A DNA stretch of 64,000 nt, taken from the NCBI RefSeq assembly GCF_002224265.1, contig NZ_CP012881.1, positions 496,001-560,000 on the forward strand, in the 5' to 3' direction. The position numbers and the translations under genes were made by a program. The notes beneath the pieces were generated by a model that searched no databases, was not told where the DNA came from, and saw only the letters and a list, made by a program, of their open reading frames with translations. The DNA is from Vibrio vulnificus NBRC 15645 = ATCC 27562. Lineage in GTDB: Bacteria; Pseudomonadota; Gammaproteobacteria; Enterobacterales; Vibrionaceae. Of this stretch, positions 1-21,903 are shown piece by piece (within the stretch, counting starts at the first letter, position 1; every line of letters starts with the position of its first letter).

Positions 1-590
1 ATTTTCGGTTGGCGGCAAACTCCGTCTACAACCGCTTGCTTTAAGCCATACTGGTAATCGCAGACTAGCATCCCTTCAGGGTCAGAATATTCTGCCATCA
101 CAATCGGCAGTCTGTCTGAACGCCAAGGAGTGCCTGACAATGCCAGCGTGTATCGTGCAAGCCCTTGTATCTTTGAGACTATCTCTACACCCCAAGAGTT
201 TGATCGACCATCTTCTTCAAACGAACAGTGATGAATTTCATCAAACACAACTAACACTCGATGTTTGCTGATAGTGTTCCAAAAGTTATCGTCAAAAAAA
301 CGGATAGATTGGTAAGTATAAGATCCTCCCAAAGAACCTAACCCTCCGTTGAATGAGCACTCTAATTTCCATGCAAACGTTTTTTGCATCCCTTCTGCTA
401 CAGACAAAGATGGCGAAAAACAGAGCACTAAGTCAATCATACCTTCTTCAAATAAGCGCCTTGCTACCTCGGCAGCCATAACGGTTTTACCTGCACCAGG
501 AGTCGCTTGGCAGAAGAAATGCGGTCGTCTATTGGATGCAAATTTATTGATAGCCAGCTCTGTACAGTCGGCTTGCCATACCCTTAGCAT
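1..590 (-). CDS. SF2 (DEAD/DEAH-type) helicase, 3' end outside the window
   Basis: The minus-strand frame opens with ATG at 590 and is still open at base 1, so about 196 N-terminal residues are visible. They hold a Walker A/motif I ATPGAGKT near residue 30, a motif II FDEIHH near residue 117 and a motif III-like SGTPWR near residue 152, the order of the first RecA-like domain of superfamily 2 helicases or translocases. The start lies 2 bp after the stop of the preceding gene (593-1129), so the two are probably co-transcribed. Position inside a Tn7-like element suggests cargo or an accessory function; a defence or DNA-processing role is inference. The second RecA domain and any nuclease domain are beyond the edge. 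Confidence 0.85.
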   Translation of the reverse strand, partial: MLRVWQADCTELAINKFASNRRPHFFCQATPGAGKTVMAAEVARRLFEEGMIDLVLCFSPSLSVAEGMQKTFAWKLECSFNGGLGSLGGSYTYQSIRFFDDNFWNTISKHRVLVVFDEIHHCSFEEDGRSNSWGVEIVSKIQGLARYTLALSGTPWRSDRLPIVMAEYSDPEGMLVCDYQYGLKQAVVDGVCRQPK

Positions 591-592
591 TG

Positions 593-1129
593 TTACACCT
601 TACCTTGTGCGACTTTCATCCAATTGGTTAGTGCATTGATTTTGCCCAATAGCTTTGCTGATCGTTCTCGCGCTGCGCTAAATAGAGGTTGCATCTTTTG
701 TCTGCTATGGGGGAAGCGCGTCAACAAAGACTGATATTCCTCTATCTCCCCAAGAGTAATCGCAAGCTCTCCTTCATATTGTTTTTTCTCCTGCTCCAAT
801 GCAGTTAGAGAGGTATCAGCAATTTGAATCGCTATTGGATCAACGTTAACTTTACTCTTTCTAGCCACTCGGGGCTCGACTGTGAGTGCTTTGAACTCGC
901 TAGTTTGATGGTAACGTTTCGCTCTGTGAGTCCCAACAACAGAAAGCCAACCTTTCTCCTCGAATGATAGAAGTTGCTTATAAATGTACTTTCGAGCGTC
1001 ATCCTTACTCGGGAAGGTCACATCACTGTTTAGTAGAGTATCCCTAGCATCTATGACTGAAAAGCCATCCATTCCTTTTTCAATCAATAGGTTAAACATG
1101 TGAGGGTTAATTCTGATCACTTTATTCAT
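593..1129 (-). CDS. unrecognised winged-helix-like / coiled-coil protein (178 aa)
   Basis: I do not recognise this protein. Residues about 10-80 read like a winged-helix domain: alternating helices, a KYIYKQLLSFEEKGWL recognition-like helix, then a short beta wing. Residues about 95-175 are charged and heptad-like (ALEQEKKQYEGEL) and probably form a coiled coil. It could be a DNA-binding adaptor for the helicase encoded 2 bp downstream. It is divergent from the Xre-type gene at 1231, and the two paired palindromes between them probably control both. Function is unknown; the helicase partnership is inferred only from spacing. Confidence 0.7.
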   Translation of the reverse strand: MNKVIRINPHMFNLLIEKGMDGFSVIDARDTLLNSDVTFPSKDDARKYIYKQLLSFEEKGWLSVVGTHRAKRYHQTSEFKALTVEPRVARKSKVNVDPIAIQIADTSLTALEQEKKQYEGELAITLGEIEEYQSLLTRFPHSRQKMQPLFSAARERSAKLLGKINALTNWMKVAQGKV

Positions 1130-1151
1130 ATCACTAGTACAAACAGCTAAA

Positions 1152-1202
1152 ACTTAGGATTGCTAAGTATACAAAAATCAGTAAAACTTAGACAATCTAA
1201 GT
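1152..1202. promoter_or_regulatory. two matching Xre-type operators in the divergent control region
   Basis: Two copies of ACTTAG-N5-CTAAGT lie at 1152-1168 and 1186-1202. Both half-sites are perfect in each copy while the 5-bp centres differ (GATTG and ACAAT). Centres are 34 bp apart, close to three helical turns, so bound dimers would face the same side. The sites sit between the start at 1129 (minus) and the GTG at 1231 (plus), as expected for an autoregulated phage-like repressor. That the 1231-1539 product is the binder is inference. Confidence 0.75.
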
Positions 1203-1230
1203 TACCTAGAGGTTGAAAAGAAATGTGTAA

Positions 1231-1539
1231 GTGCAAAAAAACAACCCAATCCCAGAAAGGCTCAAAGCTGCGCGTAAAAAAGCCAAAATCACCCAAAAAG
1301 ATTTAGGGGTGAAAATAGGCATGGAACCCAGCTCGGCGAGTGGGCGGATGAACCACTATGAGAAAGGTAGACATGTACCCGATCTTGGCACGCTCGAACG
1401 AATGGCTGAAGAGTTAAACGTACCACTAAACTACTTTTTCTGTAGAAACGAGTTAAGTGCTGAACTGGCTTGCGTGATTGACAAAATGAGTGACGAAGAG
1501 AAAGCAGCGCTGTTGGATAATCTAAGCCGTGAAAAGTAG
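1231..1539 (+). CDS. Xre-family helix-turn-helix repressor (102 aa)
   Basis: Residues about 8-70 form a Cro/CI-type HTH (PERLKAARKKAKITQKDLG, then an SSASGRMNHYEKGRHVPD stretch and a LERMAEELNVPLNYFF tail), followed by a short acidic C-terminal helix. The start is GTG at 1231; an ATG at 1223 is in another frame. Two identical-armed palindromes precede the gene and are its likely operators. It ends 3 bp from the convergent tnsC gene. Xre regulators are known accessory genes in type I-F3 CRISPR-associated Tn7-like elements, where they control the atypical guide and Cas genes. The same role here is possible but cannot be shown. Confidence 0.85.
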   Translation: MQKNNPIPERLKAARKKAKITQKDLGVKIGMEPSSASGRMNHYEKGRHVPDLGTLERMAEELNVPLNYFFCRNELSAELACVIDKMSDEEKAALLDNLSREK

Positions 1540-1542
1540 TCT

Positions 1543-2640
1543 CTAAACTTTAAGCCCATTTTTGCTCAATAGCATGCTCAACGGAATGGCGTCTGTAAAA
1601 CGAGGGGCTACTATTTTATCTTCAGTGGTAATTGCATTTAAGTGGTAAGCAGAACCAGAGTCAATTTGATGAAGACTAAGCTGCTCTAAAGGACGATCAA
1701 ACGGGTTATCTAGGTAGGGGAACTTAAATGCAAAAGTGCGTGACAATATTGCTCTGTCTATCGTATCCGCATCGTCTTTGAAGCTCGTAAGCAACGCGTC
1801 TTTCAAGAAGTGTTTTAACGCTCGGCATTCTCCTCGGCACATTGCAAACAGGGGATATAGCAGTTCATTCTTTGTAAGTACTGGTGGCTCATCAAAGCCC
1901 ATCCTTGAACTCAGACCCGCGACAAATCTGGCAAAATGTTTTTTTTGTTCTAAGTCAAACCCATAAGATACCGTTCTATTCGAATGACTCTTCGCTTTCA
2001 ACAATTTGAAATAATCTATCTTTCTCCTCCAGCTTAGCCGCGAGTTCCACTGTGGTTCTGTCGCTATCACATCAGCATAAGGCATACCCACTAGCACAAA
2101 CGAGACTCTTGCTTCTTCACTTATATATTTGAATGTGTTGGCAATAACTTGTCTCTGTTCTGCGGTTGAAAACTCAACCAGCTCTTGAATTTCATTAACA
2201 ATAATCAGCTCAACAGATTTACGTTTAAGTTGCTTTACAACCGCTTCGCCAAGCGCAATTTCATTACGGCGCCGAATACCTCTTCCTCCGGATTTACAAT
2301 CTAAATCAACCAAAAATTGGGTCAGCGTATTCTGTTCATTGATACGACTTGGCACTCTAGTGCTTAATACTGGCTGCTTTCCCCAAGTTGAACCCGATTG
2401 AAAGCGTGACAAGTAGTTGTTGATCAAAGCTGTCTTTCCACTTCCAGCCTCACCAGTTAACAAGAAAGACTCTGGTTCACCACCTAAAGAGTGATTGAAA
2501 CGAAGTTGATCAAAGATAGAGTAGATTTCAGTTATCGCGGGATACTCGATAAAGCTGGTTTCAAAGGACTTTAGCTGCTCAAGCTGCTTTGGCGTTAAAT
2601 TCAAATTAGTACCCTTCAATATCTTCAAAATCATCGTCAT
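1543..2640 (-). CDS. tnsC: TnsC, AAA+ transposition regulator
   Basis: This AAA+ ATPase links target recognition to the TnsA/TnsB transposase. Walker A is GEAGSGKT (residues 63-70) and the Walker B-like strand is ELIIVNEIQEL, with Asn149 where Asp is usual. A RQVIANTFKYISEEA helix and VLVGMPYAD sensor-1 strand follow. At 365 residues it is far shorter than Tn7 TnsC (about 555) and nearer the roughly 330-residue TnsC of Tn6677-like I-F3 elements. The ATG at 2640 overlaps tnsB by 35 bp; a TTG at 2604, just past the tnsB stop and behind a GAAGG, is an alternative start that would give a protein beginning near LNLTPKQ. It is the third gene of the tnsABC operon. No TniQ/TnsD gene follows it directly. 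Confidence 0.92.
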   Translation of the reverse strand: MTMILKILKGTNLNLTPKQLEQLKSFETSFIEYPAITEIYSIFDQLRFNHSLGGEPESFLLTGEAGSGKTALINNYLSRFQSGSTWGKQPVLSTRVPSRINEQNTLTQFLVDLDCKSGGRGIRRRNEIALGEAVVKQLKRKSVELIIVNEIQELVEFSTAEQRQVIANTFKYISEEARVSFVLVGMPYADVIATEPQWNSRLSWRRKIDYFKLLKAKSHSNRTVSYGFDLEQKKHFARFVAGLSSRMGFDEPPVLTKNELLYPLFAMCRGECRALKHFLKDALLTSFKDDADTIDRAILSRTFAFKFPYLDNPFDRPLEQLSLHQIDSGSAYHLNAITTEDKIVAPRFTDAIPLSMLLSKNGLKV

Positions 2641-4471
2641 CTAAGTACTCCGAGGCATCGGAAACAACCTCAGATTTGTGCCTAACAGGAATCACGTTGA
2701 TTGAGCTTGGTCCCTCAGATCCGACATCATTAAACTTTGCTAGTTTCGACGTGTTGCCTGTTTTAGGAAGGTTGGACTTGCTACTTTTAACACGGCGGAA
2801 TCTATCGGTTTCTTCCTGGATACGTTTTTTCATATATAGAAATGTATCCGCAAGAGCCTCATCATCAGCAAGATCCTTGGTGTTCAGTCTGCGTACTTTT
2901 TGTATGCGCTGGTGTTCAAAAAGTGAAAGGCCGTTTGTATATCCGCTGTTGTCTACCGCTGGAACTTTTATGTACTTCTTTTCTGATTCTAGATAAACAT
3001 GGATGTAGCTGATATCAGAAGGATCTGTTTTGGTTTTAACAAAGAGCTTTTTGCCATCATTAGGTGTGCAATATTTCCGGTATTCAATAAGCTCGGCGGA
3101 CTGATAGCGTAAATTATGCAGCCTGATCCCGGCCACTCCAATCGTCCTGTGTCTAAGCAATCCTAACTCTACTCTAAGTTGCTCCTTCTCAGCACCATCA
3201 TAGTAAGAAGGCGTCCATTTCGATTGGTGCCACTTGTGGTATGGGATCTCACGCTCTCTAGAATCTGGTGCCATGTGGTAATAGTCGACAATCCATTTAT
3301 GGAGTAATTCAAGAAATACCGATACCCTGACCACGGCATCCTTCTTTGGATTGTAATCTTGTAGTTGAGTAGGATTGGTGAAGGTTTTTCCAGGCAGAGC
3401 GTTAACTAACCCTTTATTCATTTGATCGAACAGCTTTTCGATCCCTGACTTTCGCCAAGGCTTCGCGGCTTGACTATATTGAATATCGGACACCAAAGGC
3501 CGTAACGAATCTTCCAAGCTTTGACTCCAAAACTCGGCACCGTTATCGACGACCAAGCAATCAATCTTACCGTGGCAAGGCCACTCATTCTCAATCGATG
3601 GATACTTTGCTTTAAGCCAGCTTTTATCCAAAAGTGAATTCAACAGAGCCTTTCTAACAGAGTCAAAGCTTGGCTCTCTAAAGTTGATACTGCAACCAAC
3701 AATGCACTTACTGAAACGGTCATAAAGCATCGTCAAATAAGGGCGGCCTAAAGGAATATCTAGCTCATCGTCAATCAAAATCACTGGAACTGGGGTGTGG
3801 TCTATTTCAACGAACTCCATAGGTTTAGTTGCAGCGACCTGCTGACCAACCGAGCGATACTCCCGATCTGCATATCGCTTACCAAATCTCGCAATCGCCA
3901 CTTCATAAGGGGGTAACTCATTTATTCGATTGTAAAAAGAACGTTCGGCAATTGGCTTGATTTTTCCTTCAACAATCCCTCGATTCATTTGAATCACTCG
4001 ACTCTTATAATATCGGTATGCTTCTGCAACGCTAAGTCGTTCACGTGTCAGGTATACGTTCTGAATTGCCTCATCAATCAAGGATTGCGAATCCATTTCT
4101 TTCTGGCGATTGCCCTTAAACGTATGCTTCGGAATAAGTGCCCATGGTTCTCTACCTGCTTCAGAGTAGGATTTTTTCCAAGTTGCTACAGTCCGCCAAC
4201 TAGGGGGAGTCAGCTGTAATTCTGACTCAACGAGACTTAAGATGGGGTTCAAGTTTTTCTCAGTCCACCCACCTTTCAAGCGCTTCTCCACAAAGGTAAT
4301 CACTTTTATGCGGCGAAGAACCTCTTCCTGAATTTTTGCTGGCAAACTATCTATGGTCGATGATATTTCAACGGGTTCTAGAATTAGTTCTTTTGGGAGC
4401 AACTGTGATTCTTCTTCTGACGCTTCAAACTCATCAAAGAACCCAAATATGTTATCAGAGTCAGGTGGCAT
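2606..4471 (-). CDS. tnsB: TnsB, DDE transposase of the Tn7-like element
   Basis: This retroviral-integrase-fold transposase would bind the element ends and join 3' ends to target DNA. Starting at ATG 4471 (2 bp after the tnsA stop) gives 621 residues; a TTG at 4483 overlapping tnsA is less likely. The catalytic triad is readable: Asp224 in EIDHTP, Asp309 in VVDNGAEF and Glu345 in SGIEKLFDQMN, with 35 residues between the last two. N-terminal HTH regions precede the catalytic core, and a basic, low-complexity C-terminal tail, used in the family to contact TnsC, follows. The frame is intact and likely functional. It sits between tnsA and tnsC in one operon. Confidence 0.93.
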   Translation of the reverse strand: MPPDSDNIFGFFDEFEASEEESQLLPKELILEPVEISSTIDSLPAKIQEEVLRRIKVITFVEKRLKGGWTEKNLNPILSLVESELQLTPPSWRTVATWKKSYSEAGREPWALIPKHTFKGNRQKEMDSQSLIDEAIQNVYLTRERLSVAEAYRYYKSRVIQMNRGIVEGKIKPIAERSFYNRINELPPYEVAIARFGKRYADREYRSVGQQVAATKPMEFVEIDHTPVPVILIDDELDIPLGRPYLTMLYDRFSKCIVGCSINFREPSFDSVRKALLNSLLDKSWLKAKYPSIENEWPCHGKIDCLVVDNGAEFWSQSLEDSLRPLVSDIQYSQAAKPWRKSGIEKLFDQMNKGLVNALPGKTFTNPTQLQDYNPKKDAVVRVSVFLELLHKWIVDYYHMAPDSREREIPYHKWHQSKWTPSYYDGAEKEQLRVELGLLRHRTIGVAGIRLHNLRYQSAELIEYRKYCTPNDGKKLFVKTKTDPSDISYIHVYLESEKKYIKVPAVDNSGYTNGLSLFEHQRIQKVRRLNTKDLADDEALADTFLYMKKRIQEETDRFRRVKSSKSNLPKTGNTSKLAKFNDVGSEGPSSINVIPVRHKSEVVSDASEYLDDDDFEDIEGY

Positions 4472-4473
4472 AG

Positions 4474-5097
4474 TTAGCACCAAACGCAGGTTTCTAGACC
4501 AAAGCCAATCGTGTTGAGGTCTGTTTTAACGTGCCCCGAAGAGATCCAAGGTAGAGTAGAGATAAGTGTGTCTTGCTCTGATAGACCAAAATACAAAGAC
4601 ACCTCTTGCAACTTGACCATTTGCTTGCGTTGAATAAAAGCCAAAACTCGCTTTTGAAACTCGGTCACTGTGCGCAATCCAGAGTAGCGGTGTAACAACT
4701 TAAAGTTATCTAGCGTTGGTCCCATCCTAATTTGCTTTTCAGTAACGAGAACTAACCGTCTGTTGAACTCACTCAACGCTACTCTCTGCTTCTCTTCAAA
4801 GCGCTCCCTAAAATCAGGTTTAAGAATCTGGCTAGAGTGTTTGACCTCGAAGAATGTTGATTGCTCATTATGATCTATTGCTAAAAAGTCTGGAGTATAT
4901 CGGCACTTGCGATTATTGAACTGATAGTGGAAGCCAAAAGGTTGAGAGGTAAAACTTTTGATGTTTGGGTTGTATTCGAGGTGAAAACAGAAATCGAATT
5001 CCAGAATAGAGAGAGTGCGAACAACAGCATCGTTCTTCAAGCTCATGAACTTACAGATGTTGTGTACGTGAGATGATTTCTTAGTTTGGTCAAACAT
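4474..5097 (-). CDS. tnsA: TnsA, endonuclease subunit of the Tn7-like transposase
   Basis: TnsA cuts the 5' ends of the element, allowing cut-and-paste rather than cointegrate transposition. Numbered from a TTG at 5103, the restriction-endonuclease-like core shows Glu35 (SILEFDFC), Asp72 (YTPDF) and Glu86-x-Lys88 (FEVKHS). A helical C-terminal domain (about 130-205) matches the winged-helix part that contacts TnsC. ATG at 5097 is the preferred start (207 aa), shorter than Tn7 TnsA (273) and similar to I-F3 element TnsA. It is the first gene of tnsABC, and only about 30 bp separate it from the candidate element end, so promoter and TnsB sites must be compact or overlap the coding start. Confidence 0.92.
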   Translation of the reverse strand: MFDQTKKSSHVHNICKFMSLKNDAVVRTLSILEFDFCFHLEYNPNIKSFTSQPFGFHYQFNNRKCRYTPDFLAIDHNEQSTFFEVKHSSQILKPDFRERFEEKQRVALSEFNRRLVLVTEKQIRMGPTLDNFKLLHRYSGLRTVTEFQKRVLAFIQRKQMVKLQEVSLYFGLSEQDTLISTLPWISSGHVKTDLNTIGFGLETCVWC

Positions 5098-5110
5098 AGC
5101 CAAGTCACTT

Positions 5111-5130
5111 TTGTTGTAAACCTACAACAA
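5111..5130. repeat. candidate terminal sequence of the Tn7-like element
   Basis: TTGTTGTA-AACC-TACAACAA is a perfect 8-bp inverted repeat. Read inward from 5129 it begins TGTTGTAGG and continues ACAACAAAAGTGA, which resembles the terminal TGTTG followed by an ACAACC-type TnsB repeat of Tn6677-like ends. The terminal ACA at 5127-5129 would be followed by a poly-A 5-bp target duplication (5130-5134). The other copy is outside the window, so this is a proposal. Confidence 0.4.
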
Positions 5131-5164
5131 AAAAATAGACTATGAAAACTTATGGTGCAAATAT

Positions 5165-5206
5165 GAAGAAAGCCTGCAATTTATGCGAACATATATTGCA
5201 GGCTTC
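5165..5206 (-). terminator. rho-independent terminator of ffs
   Basis: On the minus strand a 10-bp perfect stem (AGCCTGCAAT / ATTGCAGGCT, 5195-5204 with 5171-5180) closes a 14-nt loop and is followed by TTCTTCAT. It lies 8 nt past the mature 4.5S RNA 3' end and is left intact by the transposon. Confidence 0.8.
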
Positions 5207-5211
5207 ATAAT

Positions 5212-5317
5212 GGGTGGGACCCCAGCCACATCCCGGCACACAAGTCATTCGCTGCGGCTGCTTCCTTCCGGACCTGACCGAGTTCACGAACTATTGTTGC
5301 GAGAGGACCAGAGCCCC
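5212..5317 (-). ncRNA. ffs: 4.5S RNA of the signal recognition particle
   Basis: The minus strand reads GGGGCTCTGGTCC at the 5' end and ends GGGTCCCACCC. It contains the invariant GGTCAGGTCCGGAAGGAAG core with the GGAA tetraloop and asymmetric loop that bind Ffh, followed by CAGCCGCAG. The ends pair as in E. coli 4.5S RNA, and the length (about 106 nt) fits. It acts with Ffh to bring inner-membrane proteins to FtsY and SecYEG. The adjoining Tn7-like element suggests that this gene's 3' region served as the attachment site. Confidence 0.95.
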
Positions 5318-5466
5318 ATAGATTCGTTTATCAAGCATTTCGCTCAATGTGGGCACGATTATTAAGCATCCCCCCCAAGATTGCAACCCCAATTCGGCAA
5401 TAATCCATGATGAGGCGAGTGACTGCTTAACTCTTGTGCAAAACACCACTTTTCAAATGGGAGAGG

Positions 5467-7440
5467 TTAAGAATAACCCATCTCACGTTGTTCATTCTTG
5501 CTCTGGTACATGTCGACATCAGCCAGATGCAGCGCTTTTTGCAAGCTCATGGCCCGCTCCCGTCTCGCGGACAAGCCAATCGAAGAACTGATGATCAATG
5601 GTTTTCCGGCAATATGCTGCTCAAGTCGAATTCGGCTAAAGCGTTCAAACGCTTCTTCAACCTCTTGCTGAGACGCTTTGCCAATTAAAATAAACTCATC
5701 GCCACCCACGCGGAAACCTTTGCCACGCCAATGGCTTTTGATTTCTTGGGCGATGGCCTTGAGCACCATGTCGCCACAGTGATGACCATATGTGTCGTTA
5801 ATCGGCTTAAAATTGTTAACGTCGATATACAAAATCGCAAGATCACCTGCGATGCCATTACCGTATTTTCTCTGTAGTTGGCGTCGATTGCCTAACCCAG
5901 TTAAATTATCTGTATTCGATAAACGATGCAGATAATATGAGAGTGCAAACGCGAGCAATAACATCGCCGCAAATAGCGTTTGTGTTTTTGCAGCAAACTT
6001 TTGCTCCATGTCTAACGAGCTTCGCCAGTCAGGACGAACATCGTAACGTTCGATAATGCTATTGAGATCGAGCATTTCTATCGCCCGACTAAAATACGGA
6101 GCCAGCACTCTGCCTTTTTCCGTGTTAGCCAAACCGATAGAAATTTTCGACGCATCAAATACGCCAATCGCGTCATCTTGCTCAATAGCCAGCTTCAACT
6201 CATTTCGTAGTAAATAGTTGAGTGTTGCCGTGTCCATCGTGATGTAATCCACTCGGTTGGCGAGTAAAGCACTGACCATCGCATCGTGATCGGAAAAACG
6301 GCTCAGCTCTTTCAATGGCAACATTTGCGTCAACAACGCATCAAAGTAGTCATCCTCAACCACTCCTACTCTCTCTGCAATTAACTGGGAGACATGAGAA
6401 TAGACATTGGGCTTATACCCCAAACGTTTTACGATAACCGACTGAGGCGCATAGTGTGGGCTTGTGTAATAAGTAAACTGCTCTCTCGCTTTGGTCATAG
6501 CCAACGGAGCCAGTAGATCAAACTCTTGCTGAATGAAGCCTTGTAGCATTTCTCCCCAACGTTCATCTGAACGGCTCACCAGTTGACAGTTAAGAGTGAG
6601 AATATCGCAACTTTGCTGCAGAACTTCGGCAGTAATACCACTCACGTGGCCATCAGGATGGTAAATCACATAAGGGTAAATCGGCTCAAGTTTGATGGTC
6701 AATGGTTCATCTAGATCGAGGGGGGCCTGAGCAATAGCCTGCTGTAGCGCCTGTTTTCGAATGGCAAATTGGTATTGCGTAATTTCTTCACGAAGCCTTT
6801 TTTGCATCTGCTCGCTGTGAATGAACTGAGCAAATTGAGTCAACTCTTCTAAGTGTTGCCCTTTTTGACTGACGATAGAGACGGGTTTTATCGAAATTTC
6901 ATCGTTGAGAAGATGGGCATTGGTCCCTTTAAGCAACATAGGCTTAAGTTGATTGATAGCATCCACAATGCCATCCACTCGACCGTGACTGATCAACACA
7001 TATGCTTCTTCGTGGCCTTGGTACGAAACAAGCTGAATGTCTGGATGATTTACCGCAATCAGCTCCCCATAAATGGTGTCTTGAGGCACACCAATACGTG
7101 TCGCATCGCGCAACGAATTGGTCGTATTAGAATAGAGATAGGTATATTCAATATTGGTTGGGTGTGAATAACTGAATCTTTTTTCACGTTCATGTGTAAA
7201 CGTAATGTTCGCTGCGAAATCTGTTTCACCACGCGCAACTGAATCGAGAATAGCATCAAAACTCGGCATATTCACATAGGTGACATCCAGCGCAAACTGC
7301 TCGGCAATGGCATCAAACAGAACCCGCGTCACCACATCATCCGCTTCCGTTGCCACTGTGATCTCTTTACTCTTTGCCCAACAGTTGAACGATACCCAAA
7401 CGAATACGCAGGAAAGCAGCCAACCAAATTTTTTTATCAT
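5467..7440 (-). CDS. diguanylate cyclase with two periplasmic solute-binding-like domains
   Basis: A signal sequence (about 1-22) is followed by two tandem SBP_bac_3-type domains (about 25-235 and 255-480), one transmembrane helix near 485-505 and a C-terminal GGDEF domain. The active-site motif is intact (RVGGDEF, GGDEF at 579-583) and is preceded by DNLTGLGNRR. No RxxD inhibitory site is present at the usual place before GGDEF. The likely function is making cyclic di-GMP in response to a small periplasmic ligand, perhaps an amino acid. Ligand identity is unknown. It is transcribed toward ffs and stands alone. Confidence 0.9.
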   Translation of the reverse strand: MIKKFGWLLSCVFVWVSFNCWAKSKEITVATEADDVVTRVLFDAIAEQFALDVTYVNMPSFDAILDSVARGETDFAANITFTHEREKRFSYSHPTNIEYTYLYSNTTNSLRDATRIGVPQDTIYGELIAVNHPDIQLVSYQGHEEAYVLISHGRVDGIVDAINQLKPMLLKGTNAHLLNDEISIKPVSIVSQKGQHLEELTQFAQFIHSEQMQKRLREEITQYQFAIRKQALQQAIAQAPLDLDEPLTIKLEPIYPYVIYHPDGHVSGITAEVLQQSCDILTLNCQLVSRSDERWGEMLQGFIQQEFDLLAPLAMTKAREQFTYYTSPHYAPQSVIVKRLGYKPNVYSHVSQLIAERVGVVEDDYFDALLTQMLPLKELSRFSDHDAMVSALLANRVDYITMDTATLNYLLRNELKLAIEQDDAIGVFDASKISIGLANTEKGRVLAPYFSRAIEMLDLNSIIERYDVRPDWRSSLDMEQKFAAKTQTLFAAMLLLAFALSYYLHRLSNTDNLTGLGNRRQLQRKYGNGIAGDLAILYIDVNNFKPINDTYGHHCGDMVLKAIAQEIKSHWRGKGFRVGGDEFILIGKASQQEVEEAFERFSRIRLEQHIAGKPLIISSSIGLSARRERAMSLQKALHLADVDMYQSKNEQREMGYS

Positions 7441-14335: not shown

Positions 14336-15421
14336 ATGTGTACGGACCACAACTGGATTAATAACGCGATTCGCAAGATTGAAGCTGACTTCCAACGCTC
14401 TGCTGATACCCATTTATTTAAGCTCGATCTTCCGTCTCTCGATGGCATTGATATTTATCTCAAAGACGAAAGCACCCATCCAACCGGTTCGCTAAAGCAT
14501 CGCTTAGCGCGTTCGTTGTTTCTCTACGCGATTTGTAATGGCTGGATTGGCCCAGAAACCACCGTCATTGAGTCATCTTCAGGCAGTACTGCCGTGTCAG
14601 AGGCGTACTTCGCACGCTTGCTAGGCTTACCTTTTATCGCAGTGATGCCAAAATGCACCGCTAGAAAGAAAATCGAGCAAATTGAGTTTTATGGCGGTAA
14701 AGCCCATTTGGTGGATCGCTCCGATCAAATTTACGCAGAATCTCACCGCTTAGCCAAAGAGTTGAATGGTCACTATATGGATCAGTTCACGTACGCGGAG
14801 CGCGCAACGGACTGGCGTGGCAACAACAACATCGCGAACTCTATCTTCAGCCAAATGAAACTCGAAGAGCACCCAGAACCAAGCTGGATCGTGATGAGCC
14901 CAGGAACAGGCGGCACGTCGGCCACCATCGGTCGCTTTATCCGTTACCAAAAGCTGGACACCAAGTTGTGCGTGGTTGACCCAGAAAACTCGGTGTTCTT
15001 TGACTACTTCCAAAGCGGTGACAACACAATAACGGGCAATACTGGCAGTAAGATCGAGGGCATCGGTCGTCCACGTGTTGAACCAAGCTTTATCGCTGGC
15101 GTTGTCGATGAAATGCGAAAAATCCCTGATGCCGCGTCTGTTGCTTGTACTCACTGGGTATCTAAGCTGATTGGCCGCAACGTTGGTGCCTCAACGGGCA
15201 CAAACCTGTATGGGGTGTTGCAATTGGCATGCGAAATGAAACAGCGTGGCGAGCGCGGCTCTATCGTGACTCTGTTGTGTGACAGCGGAGATCGCTACTT
15301 AGACACCTACTTTAATGAAGAGTGGGTAAAAACCAACATTGGTGACATTCAACCCTACTTAGAGCAGCTTGAAATCATTGAGCGCGATGGCTGCGTGGCC
15401 CCCATCTGCTGCCCTGCGTAA
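14336..15421 (+). CDS. PLP-dependent cysteine desulfhydrase, Cds1-like
   Basis: This fold-type II PLP enzyme has Lys54 in [12 protein letters not shown] as the likely Schiff-base lysine, a phosphate-binding [12 protein letters not shown] loop, and an [21 protein letters not shown] substrate loop. Overall wording ([37 protein letters not shown]) is that of the mycobacterial Cds1 cysteine desulfhydrase group rather than CysK/CysM. The expected reaction is L-cysteine to pyruvate, ammonia and hydrogen sulfide. C-terminal cysteines ([10 protein letters not shown]) are unusual. The divergent Lrp-type gene is its likely regulator. Automated annotation often calls such genes cysteine synthase, so direction of the reaction remains to be proved. 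Confidence 0.82.
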
Positions 15422-21118: not shown

Positions 21119-21203
<85 letters not shown>

Positions 21204-21293
21204 TATTTCTTCTTGTGATTATCCTCTGGATTAATTGTGAGAAACACTTGGATAGTGTGTTGGGAAAACACGTTCTAAGTATAAAAACACCCT

Positions 21294-21378
<85 letters not shown>

Positions 21379-21468
21379 TATTCTTCTTGTGATTATCCTC
21401 TGGATTAATTGTGAGAAACACTTGGATAGTGTGTTGGGAAAACACGTTCTAAGTATAAAAAACACCCT

Positions 21469-21553
<85 letters not shown>

Positions 21554-21643
21554 TATTTCTTCTTGTGATTATCCTCTGGATTAATTGTGAGAAACACTTG
21601 GATAGTGTGTTGGGAAAACACGTTCTAAGTATAAAAACACCCT

Positions 21644-21728
<85 letters not shown>

Positions 21729-21818
21729 TATTTCTTCTTGTGATTATCCTCTGGATTGATTGTGAGAAACACTTGGATAGTGTGTTGGGAAAACGCGTTC
21801 TAAGTATAAAAACACCCT

Positions 21819-21903
<85 letters not shown>

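Follow-up and report, generated by a model that had tools for sequence, protein, structure and literature searches.

The Element and Its Attachment Site

The window, which is the whole 64,000-nucleotide stretch that was analysed (C1:496001–560000 of a 5.0-Mb Vibrio vulnificus genome in two contigs, labelled G000), opens inside a Tn7-like transposon whose right end faces the gene for the 4.5S RNA. In the comparison set, G-numbers denote genomes and L-numbers denote loci of relatives. The following features lie at this end of the window.

1–5207, no strand: right 5.2 kb of the element, assigned to type I-F3b; target-site duplication (TSD) at both ends, absent from genome G038
3–590, minus strand: hel461, N-terminal part of a helicase-like gene (PF04851), continuing left to genome 495205
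593–1129, minus strand: hyp178, conserved neighbour of xre, no Pfam, NCBIfam or PADLOC match
1231–1539, plus strand: xre, gene of an Xre-family regulator (PF01381, HTH_3)
1543–2640, minus strand: tnsC, 365 aa (PF05621, TniB/AAA)
2606–4483, minus strand: tnsB, 625 aa (PF09299, Mu-transpos_C)
4474–5103, minus strand: tnsA, 209 aa (PF08722, TnsA N-terminal)
5169–5206, minus strand: terminal hairpin of the right end, a candidate terminator, from the fold of the terminal sequence
5208–5212, no strand: 5-bp TSD TAATG, also at genome 460144–460148, flanking both element ends
5217–5313, minus strand: ffs (4.5S/SRP RNA), attachment site (Rfam RF00169, 73.6 bits, gathering score 40)

The genes tnsA, tnsB, tnsC and xre are open reading frames, and hel461 spans genome 495205–496590 in full. 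The initial annotation had described a tnsABC operon next to the SRP-RNA gene together with an Xre regulator, and both are confirmed by the open frames and by the Pfam and Rfam matches. Transcription of ffs runs toward tnsA, a gene of the same orientation whose start is some 110 bp downstream. The ffs match starts 9 bp past the right end, TSD counted in, and the insertion is located 3′ of the gene. The element border had been drawn at 5129 and must be moved to 5207 on the evidence of the TSD and of an empty site in G038. An inner TGTTG...CAACA repeat near 5107–5130 was considered as the right end and rejected, since the TSD-bearing end is at 5207. The whole element occupies genome C1:460149–501207 (41,059 bp; 41.1 kb) between the termini TGATGCTTGCA (left) and TGAAGCCTGCA (right). 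The expected distal end does exist: the left end is found at 460149, preceded by TAATG. Elsewhere in the window, five tRNA genes with identical Rfam scores are arranged with a 175-bp period at 21119–21900.

According to its nearest solved relatives, its site and its ends, the element is a type I-F3b CRISPR-associated transposon (CAST). The tnsB and tnsC core is closest to I-F3 chains in a search of solved chains, and tnsA was placed by Pfam only. TnsB matches PseTnsAB at E 5.6e-128, the TnsB of Tn6677 at 7.3e-67 and that of Tn7 at 4.6e-15. At E 1e-3, TnsC has three solved matches, namely 30ga_K (1.4e-55) and two Tn6677 VchTnsC chains (1.6e-15 and 1.7e-15). The TnsC of Tn7 is absent among these three, and the suggestion that this TnsC resembles Tn6677-like I-F3 proteins more than Tn7 thus holds at the level of sequence. 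The closest solved chains to TniQ, which is encoded further left, are 7u5d, which we take to be AsCAST (E 8.5e-86), and 30ga (2.4e-69), taken as PseCAST from the numbering it has in common with 30jv, whose chain is named PseTnsAB; V. cholerae chains follow at 2.5e-36 and weaker. Cas8/5 is likewise closest to 30ga and 7u5d, with V. cholerae chains farther away. The element has the 5-bp TSD, the paired left and right ends and the ffs attachment site of the I-F3b type. In the accessible text of PMC11406308, I-F3b attachment sites include ffs or rsmJ, and an ffs site together with an Xre regulator fits the I-F3b description given there. The xre gene is presumably RtbC, as the I-F3b regulator is named in that text. 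Among the 26 loci that hold tnsC, own locus counted, xre is found in 25, hyp178 in 24 and hel461 in 19. The latter two genes are possibly a conserved accessory or defence pair.

Cargo and the Truncated cas8/5 Gene

The remainder of the element is located left of the window, where the following features were recognized (genome coordinates).

492625–495081: type I restriction R
489574–491064: type I restriction M
487829–489574: type I restriction S
481796–483007: tniQ, 403 aa (PF06527)
480083–481802: truncated cas8/5 (PADLOC Cas85f positions 1–558 of 681)
478826–480084: IS3-family insertion sequence (IS), transposase 317 bits against an IS3 cut-off of 160
477669–478837: remnants of a further pair of transposase genes

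TniQ and most of Cas8/5 are encoded 13–16 kb left of the window, in agreement with the earlier proposal of a CRISPR-associated (I-F3) element at ffs. TniQ is full-length; Cas8/5 breaks off at residue ~574 of ~698, and the intact protein of the relative G071 has 698 aa. The likeness of Cas8/5 to its relatives stops exactly at the right end of the IS, abutting it to the base, and a second IS copy on C2 (1,259 bp, 95%) shows the same terminus. Insertions of the IS3 family are described in the accessible part of PMC8649781 as common in Tn7-like transposons, being present in about 30% of them.

A MatE-like gene sits between restriction R and M, and DUF3800 and other defence-candidate genes also belong to the cargo. 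Further left there is a type I secretion block with two ABC transporters (the second judged by eye) and an HlyD protein, followed by a 3352-aa protein with 36 RTX-repeat stretches and then by the left end. The secretion and RTX genes span C1:460385–477395, with a separate 123-aa frame at the C-terminal end of the RTX protein. When the first 500 residues of this protein were used as the query, no relative was found in the 71 other genomes searched.

Probable Loss of the Guide Half, and Arrays in Relatives

The initial annotation had proposed that tniQ, the cas genes and an I-F repeat be sought left of base 1. This was borne out for tniQ and, in truncated form, for cas8/5; cas7, cas6 and the repeat were not found in the genome. 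The Csy3 and Csy4 family models, which score the Cas7 and Cas6 of G071 above their cut-offs, found neither protein in this finished genome, and the G071 proteins themselves had no match in it when used as queries. Each of the two matches 16 of the 20 genomes searched, and both miss G000, G055, G024 and G038. The I-F repeat pattern, with up to 3 mismatches allowed, is also without a match in the genome. Since Cas7, Cas6 and the array were not found genome-wide, the element should be regarded as a decayed derivative and not as a working I-F3b member. G055, a draft of about 220 contigs with a close tnsABC start, may be a second guide-less case.

The possibility had been raised that an element devoid of cas genes would require another targeting route to ffs. 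Such a route need not be assumed, since an ffs-like guide spacer is present in all six relatives whose array was read (G057, G048, G027, G071, G003 and G042). The terminal spacer in each array starts with AGG(C/T)C(A/T)GGAAG, like ffs after TC, and by eye differs from ffs at about every sixth base. The PAM given for guides against ffs in the accessible text of PMC12774636 is TC. The TC-AGG target is found in the genome's own ffs in 5/6 of these relatives; the line for G057 is a chance match, as is one for G019. A TnsD-like protein, whose presence would have spoken against the I-F3 assignment, was also looked for, and the genome gave a single match to the TniQ domain, the TniQ of the CAST itself.

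Several further observations concern the arrays and their relatives. The ffs guide looks only about 18–20 nt long (other spacers read: 32–34) and stands before an atypical repeat hairpin. In G038, the insertion point is 63 nt from the first protospacer base, and a short guide therefore fits better than one of 32 nt. G003 has a second ffs-like sequence with a terminator inside the element, left of the array. In G031, G034, G004 and G047, the best Cas7 is 95, 87, 77 and 67% identical to that of G071, respectively, and the best TnsB is merely 37–38% identical to the TnsB described here, with tnsABC also at ffs. The CRISPR half at ffs appears to have been swapped among tnsABC cores that differ greatly from one another.

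An Empty Site and an Older Copy

The right flank was used as a query against 119 relatives. G038 shows 95% identity across almost the entire query and no match to TnsB, which identifies it as an empty site. Its chromosome is continuous from the equivalent of genome 454481 to that of 501208, and genome 454482–501207 is therefore foreign to this site. The order in G038 is the native ffs terminator (GCCGCC...GGCGGC), a T-run, AATG and ffs. The foreign stretch consists of the 41-kb element and a 5.7-kb remainder of an older element, which holds NhaA, HflK, an HflC-like gene (by eye) and a DUF1611 gene.

Beyond the left end of the newer copy, the older one has left a 39-bp piece of tnsB followed by a 318-bp remnant, which comprises the start of tnsA and the right end and is 97% identical to the newer copy. 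The same base was thus used twice by two copies. The left end of the older element was not found, and the native terminator is partly missing at the left edge of the remainder. Comparison of the left flanks of G027, G071, G057 and G003 with the chromosome studied here gave no useful synteny. Judging from their flanks, L102, L127 and G071 (at 15252 and 27297) carry additional stacked copies or additional left ends at this site.

A Hairpin at the ffs-Facing End

The right end can fold into a hairpin with a 12-bp outer stem, one A-A mismatch, a 4-bp inner stem and a UUCG loop, and few U residues follow it. The first 50 nt of this end fold at -20.8 kcal/mol (z -5.7), with 0 of 300 shuffles as low. 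As regards the features of rho-independent terminators, the stem is strong and the U-tract is weak, and a simple terminator scan of window 4400–5700 returned 0 sites.

For comparison, 39 sequences were collected: 34 named loci, four elements (from G000, G003, G027 and G071) and the remnant of the older copy. A recognisable right end was present in 36; L119 (plain by eye), L128 and L130 were dropped. The arms AGCCTGCA...GCAGGCTT occur in 21 of the 36 right ends, which are not independent, as they include several close relatives and two ends from the genome itself (own element and remnant counted), and these hairpins fold at -20.8 to -24.5 kcal/mol. The right end from V. rhodolitus forms another strong hairpin (-17.7), and 14 of the 36 are plain, with folds of -8.3 to -13.4. 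A further hairpin end, outside the 36, is carried by G024. Elements at ffs with a different tnsABC core have plain ends in 5/5 cases. In shuffling tests, four hairpin ends, V. rhodolitus included, gave z values of -4.4 to -7.0, four plain ends gave 0.2 to -2.6 and six left ends gave -0.1 to 1.0.

Covariation was assessed in 12 distinct 50-nt ends, a hand-chosen set in which kinship inflates such counts. Changes on both sides were found in 5 of 16 pairs (9 of 500 shuffles as high) and in 14 cells (0/500), with a covariation score of 0.205 (0/500). The number of further pair types (nine; 350/500) was no better than chance. With the partner slid by +1, the covariation score was 0.203 with 11 cells, and 51% of cells were paired versus 82%. 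The ends of V. mytili and Vibrio sp. J1-1 have a run of six Ts after GCAGGC.

The native terminator of ffs has been displaced and a hairpin stands in its place, so that the hairpin is most simply understood as a substitute terminator, a reading to which we give slightly less than an even chance. Since 14/36 ends are plain, as are 5/5 with the different core, such a replacement would not be obligatory. No terminator role of CAST ends was found in the literature searched, which is weak evidence of absence because few subscription papers were covered; the word "terminator" does not occur in the accessible parts of PMC6360697, PMC13370975 and PMC10293859. Nor was a hairpin end structure described in the literature searched, including the accessible parts of these three papers and of PMC11406308, PMC12774636 and PMC8649781. 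In the accessible part of PMC6360697, both types of end are represented by their opening letters, in 35-letter stretches that do not extend to the second arm.

Exchange of Ends between Transposase Lineages

The type of the end does not track the transposase tree. The tns genes of the element match those of V. metoecus, which has a plain end, and its last 100 bp are 98–99% those of other lineages. In 100-bp steps from the end, identity to V. metoecus is 81% and then 93–100%, and identity to V. sinaloensis is 99% and then 64–90%. This switch between steps places a crossover no more than about 100 bp from the end. Between V. sinaloensis and the SWAT-3 strain, identity is 94% in the end and 39–83% beyond it. 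In a tree of 31 TnsA rows (17 with a hairpin end and 14 with a plain one, V. rhodolitus being put among the latter), at least three changes of end type are required, two of them forced by branches with good support; G000 and V. metoecus are sisters with a support of 93/90, which is under the starred level. A reading of the ffs-facing end as both a replacement terminator and a portable module that recombines between lineages as distant as 54% (TnsB) and 61% (TnsA) identity, probably in tandem stacks at their common site, comes close to an even chance without reaching it.

Proposed Origin of the Element and Alternative Explanations

The best explanation overall, which we hold with high confidence, is a guided I-F3b insertion followed by loss of the guide through an IS, with the hairpin as the probable terminator substitute. 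An ffs-specific crRNA with TniQ-Cascade would have led the element or its ancestor to a fixed point 3′ of ffs, where TnsABC would have inserted it with the right end toward the gene. An earlier copy had taken the same base and now persists as the remnant beyond the left end. Subsequently, an IS3-family element and a deletion would have eliminated cas7, cas6, the CRISPR array and the final part of cas8/5. The element probably arrived by RNA guidance and lost its guide afterwards; with an ffs-like guide in 6/6 array-read relatives, loss is most simply placed after insertion. Since no intact counterpart of this particular element came to light, insertion before loss is simply the most economical order. 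TnsABC, TniQ, both ends and the cargo remain, and homing would depend on Cascade and a guide supplied in trans. Judging from its gene content, the element should not home alone, and RNA-guided transposition in cis is predicted to be negative. The insertion also separated ffs from its native terminator, which the right-end hairpin probably replaces while shielding tnsA.

Guide-free targeting, in which TniQ or another protein acts like TnsD and the missing CRISPR half is not a sign of decay, is very improbable. TnsABC and TniQ are indeed open over their full length beside those of relatives despite the absent Cas7 and Cas6, but this TniQ is nearest to TniQ chains solved with Cas8, no second TniQ-domain match was found in the genome, and a truncated cas8/5 that abuts an IS looks like damage. 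It is also unlikely, though less so, that the element arrived without a guide and owed its insertion to the older tandem copy, whose guide system acted in trans before that copy decayed. The same base did once hold an older member of this family, and flanks suggest stacked copies in other genomes; however, no remains of its cas genes were seen, and this scenario needs one coincidence more than loss after insertion.

A weightier alternative, to which we give somewhat less than an even chance, concerns the hairpin, which might be nothing more than the palindromic form of the terminal TnsB-binding site and play no part in ffs termination. Plain ends already carry the core TGCAA...TTGCA at the same place, the terminator scan was negative and many ffs elements have no hairpin. 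On the other hand, the six left ends tested have no such fold, in contrast to the four hairpin ends, and no shuffle reached the 14 cells with changes on both sides, while few reached the five pairs so changed. The six Ts in V. mytili and Vibrio sp. J1-1 and the movement of the end between transposase lineages also argue against a simple palindrome.

More generally, the case suggests an idea open to testing: a homing element at an essential RNA gene must handle the terminator it displaces, and part of the family seems to bring its own. If this is true, the essential RNA gene stays well terminated and tnsABC stays quiet; attachment-site choice, host fitness and transposase expression become linked, and the ends of a transposon can be swapped without its transposase being exchanged as well.

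Comparison with Known Systems

As a decayed I-F3b CAST, the element is ordinary in kind and informative in state. It provides a case in a finished genome of an RNA-guided transposon without its guide, with both ends complete and two insertions at one base. PseCAST (30ga, 30jv) is the best or second-best solved relative of its TnsB, TnsC, TniQ and Cas8, and the PseCAST chains come from a complete system, unlike the element described here. Tn6677/VchCAST, labelled IF3A in a solved entry and presumably identical to the element of V. cholerae HE-45, has the same overall gene set and is farther from these four proteins than the nearest chains are. In the accessible part of PMC6360697, the HE-45 element is located at IMPDH/guaC and has a TGT end. 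According to the same part, V. cholerae TP and V. parahaemolyticus UCM-V493 resemble the present case in having tnsABC at ffs together with tniQ and cas genes, and TP also carries a restriction-modification system, as this element does. The right end printed there for UCM-V493 starts with the same letters as the end described here, whereas that of TP is of the plain type. AsCAST is said to use ffs in the accessible text of PMC12774636. Compared with TP, UCM-V493 and AsCAST, the present element is without cas7, cas6 and an array, carries instead an IS together with the type I secretion/RTX block, and has a decayed older copy behind it.
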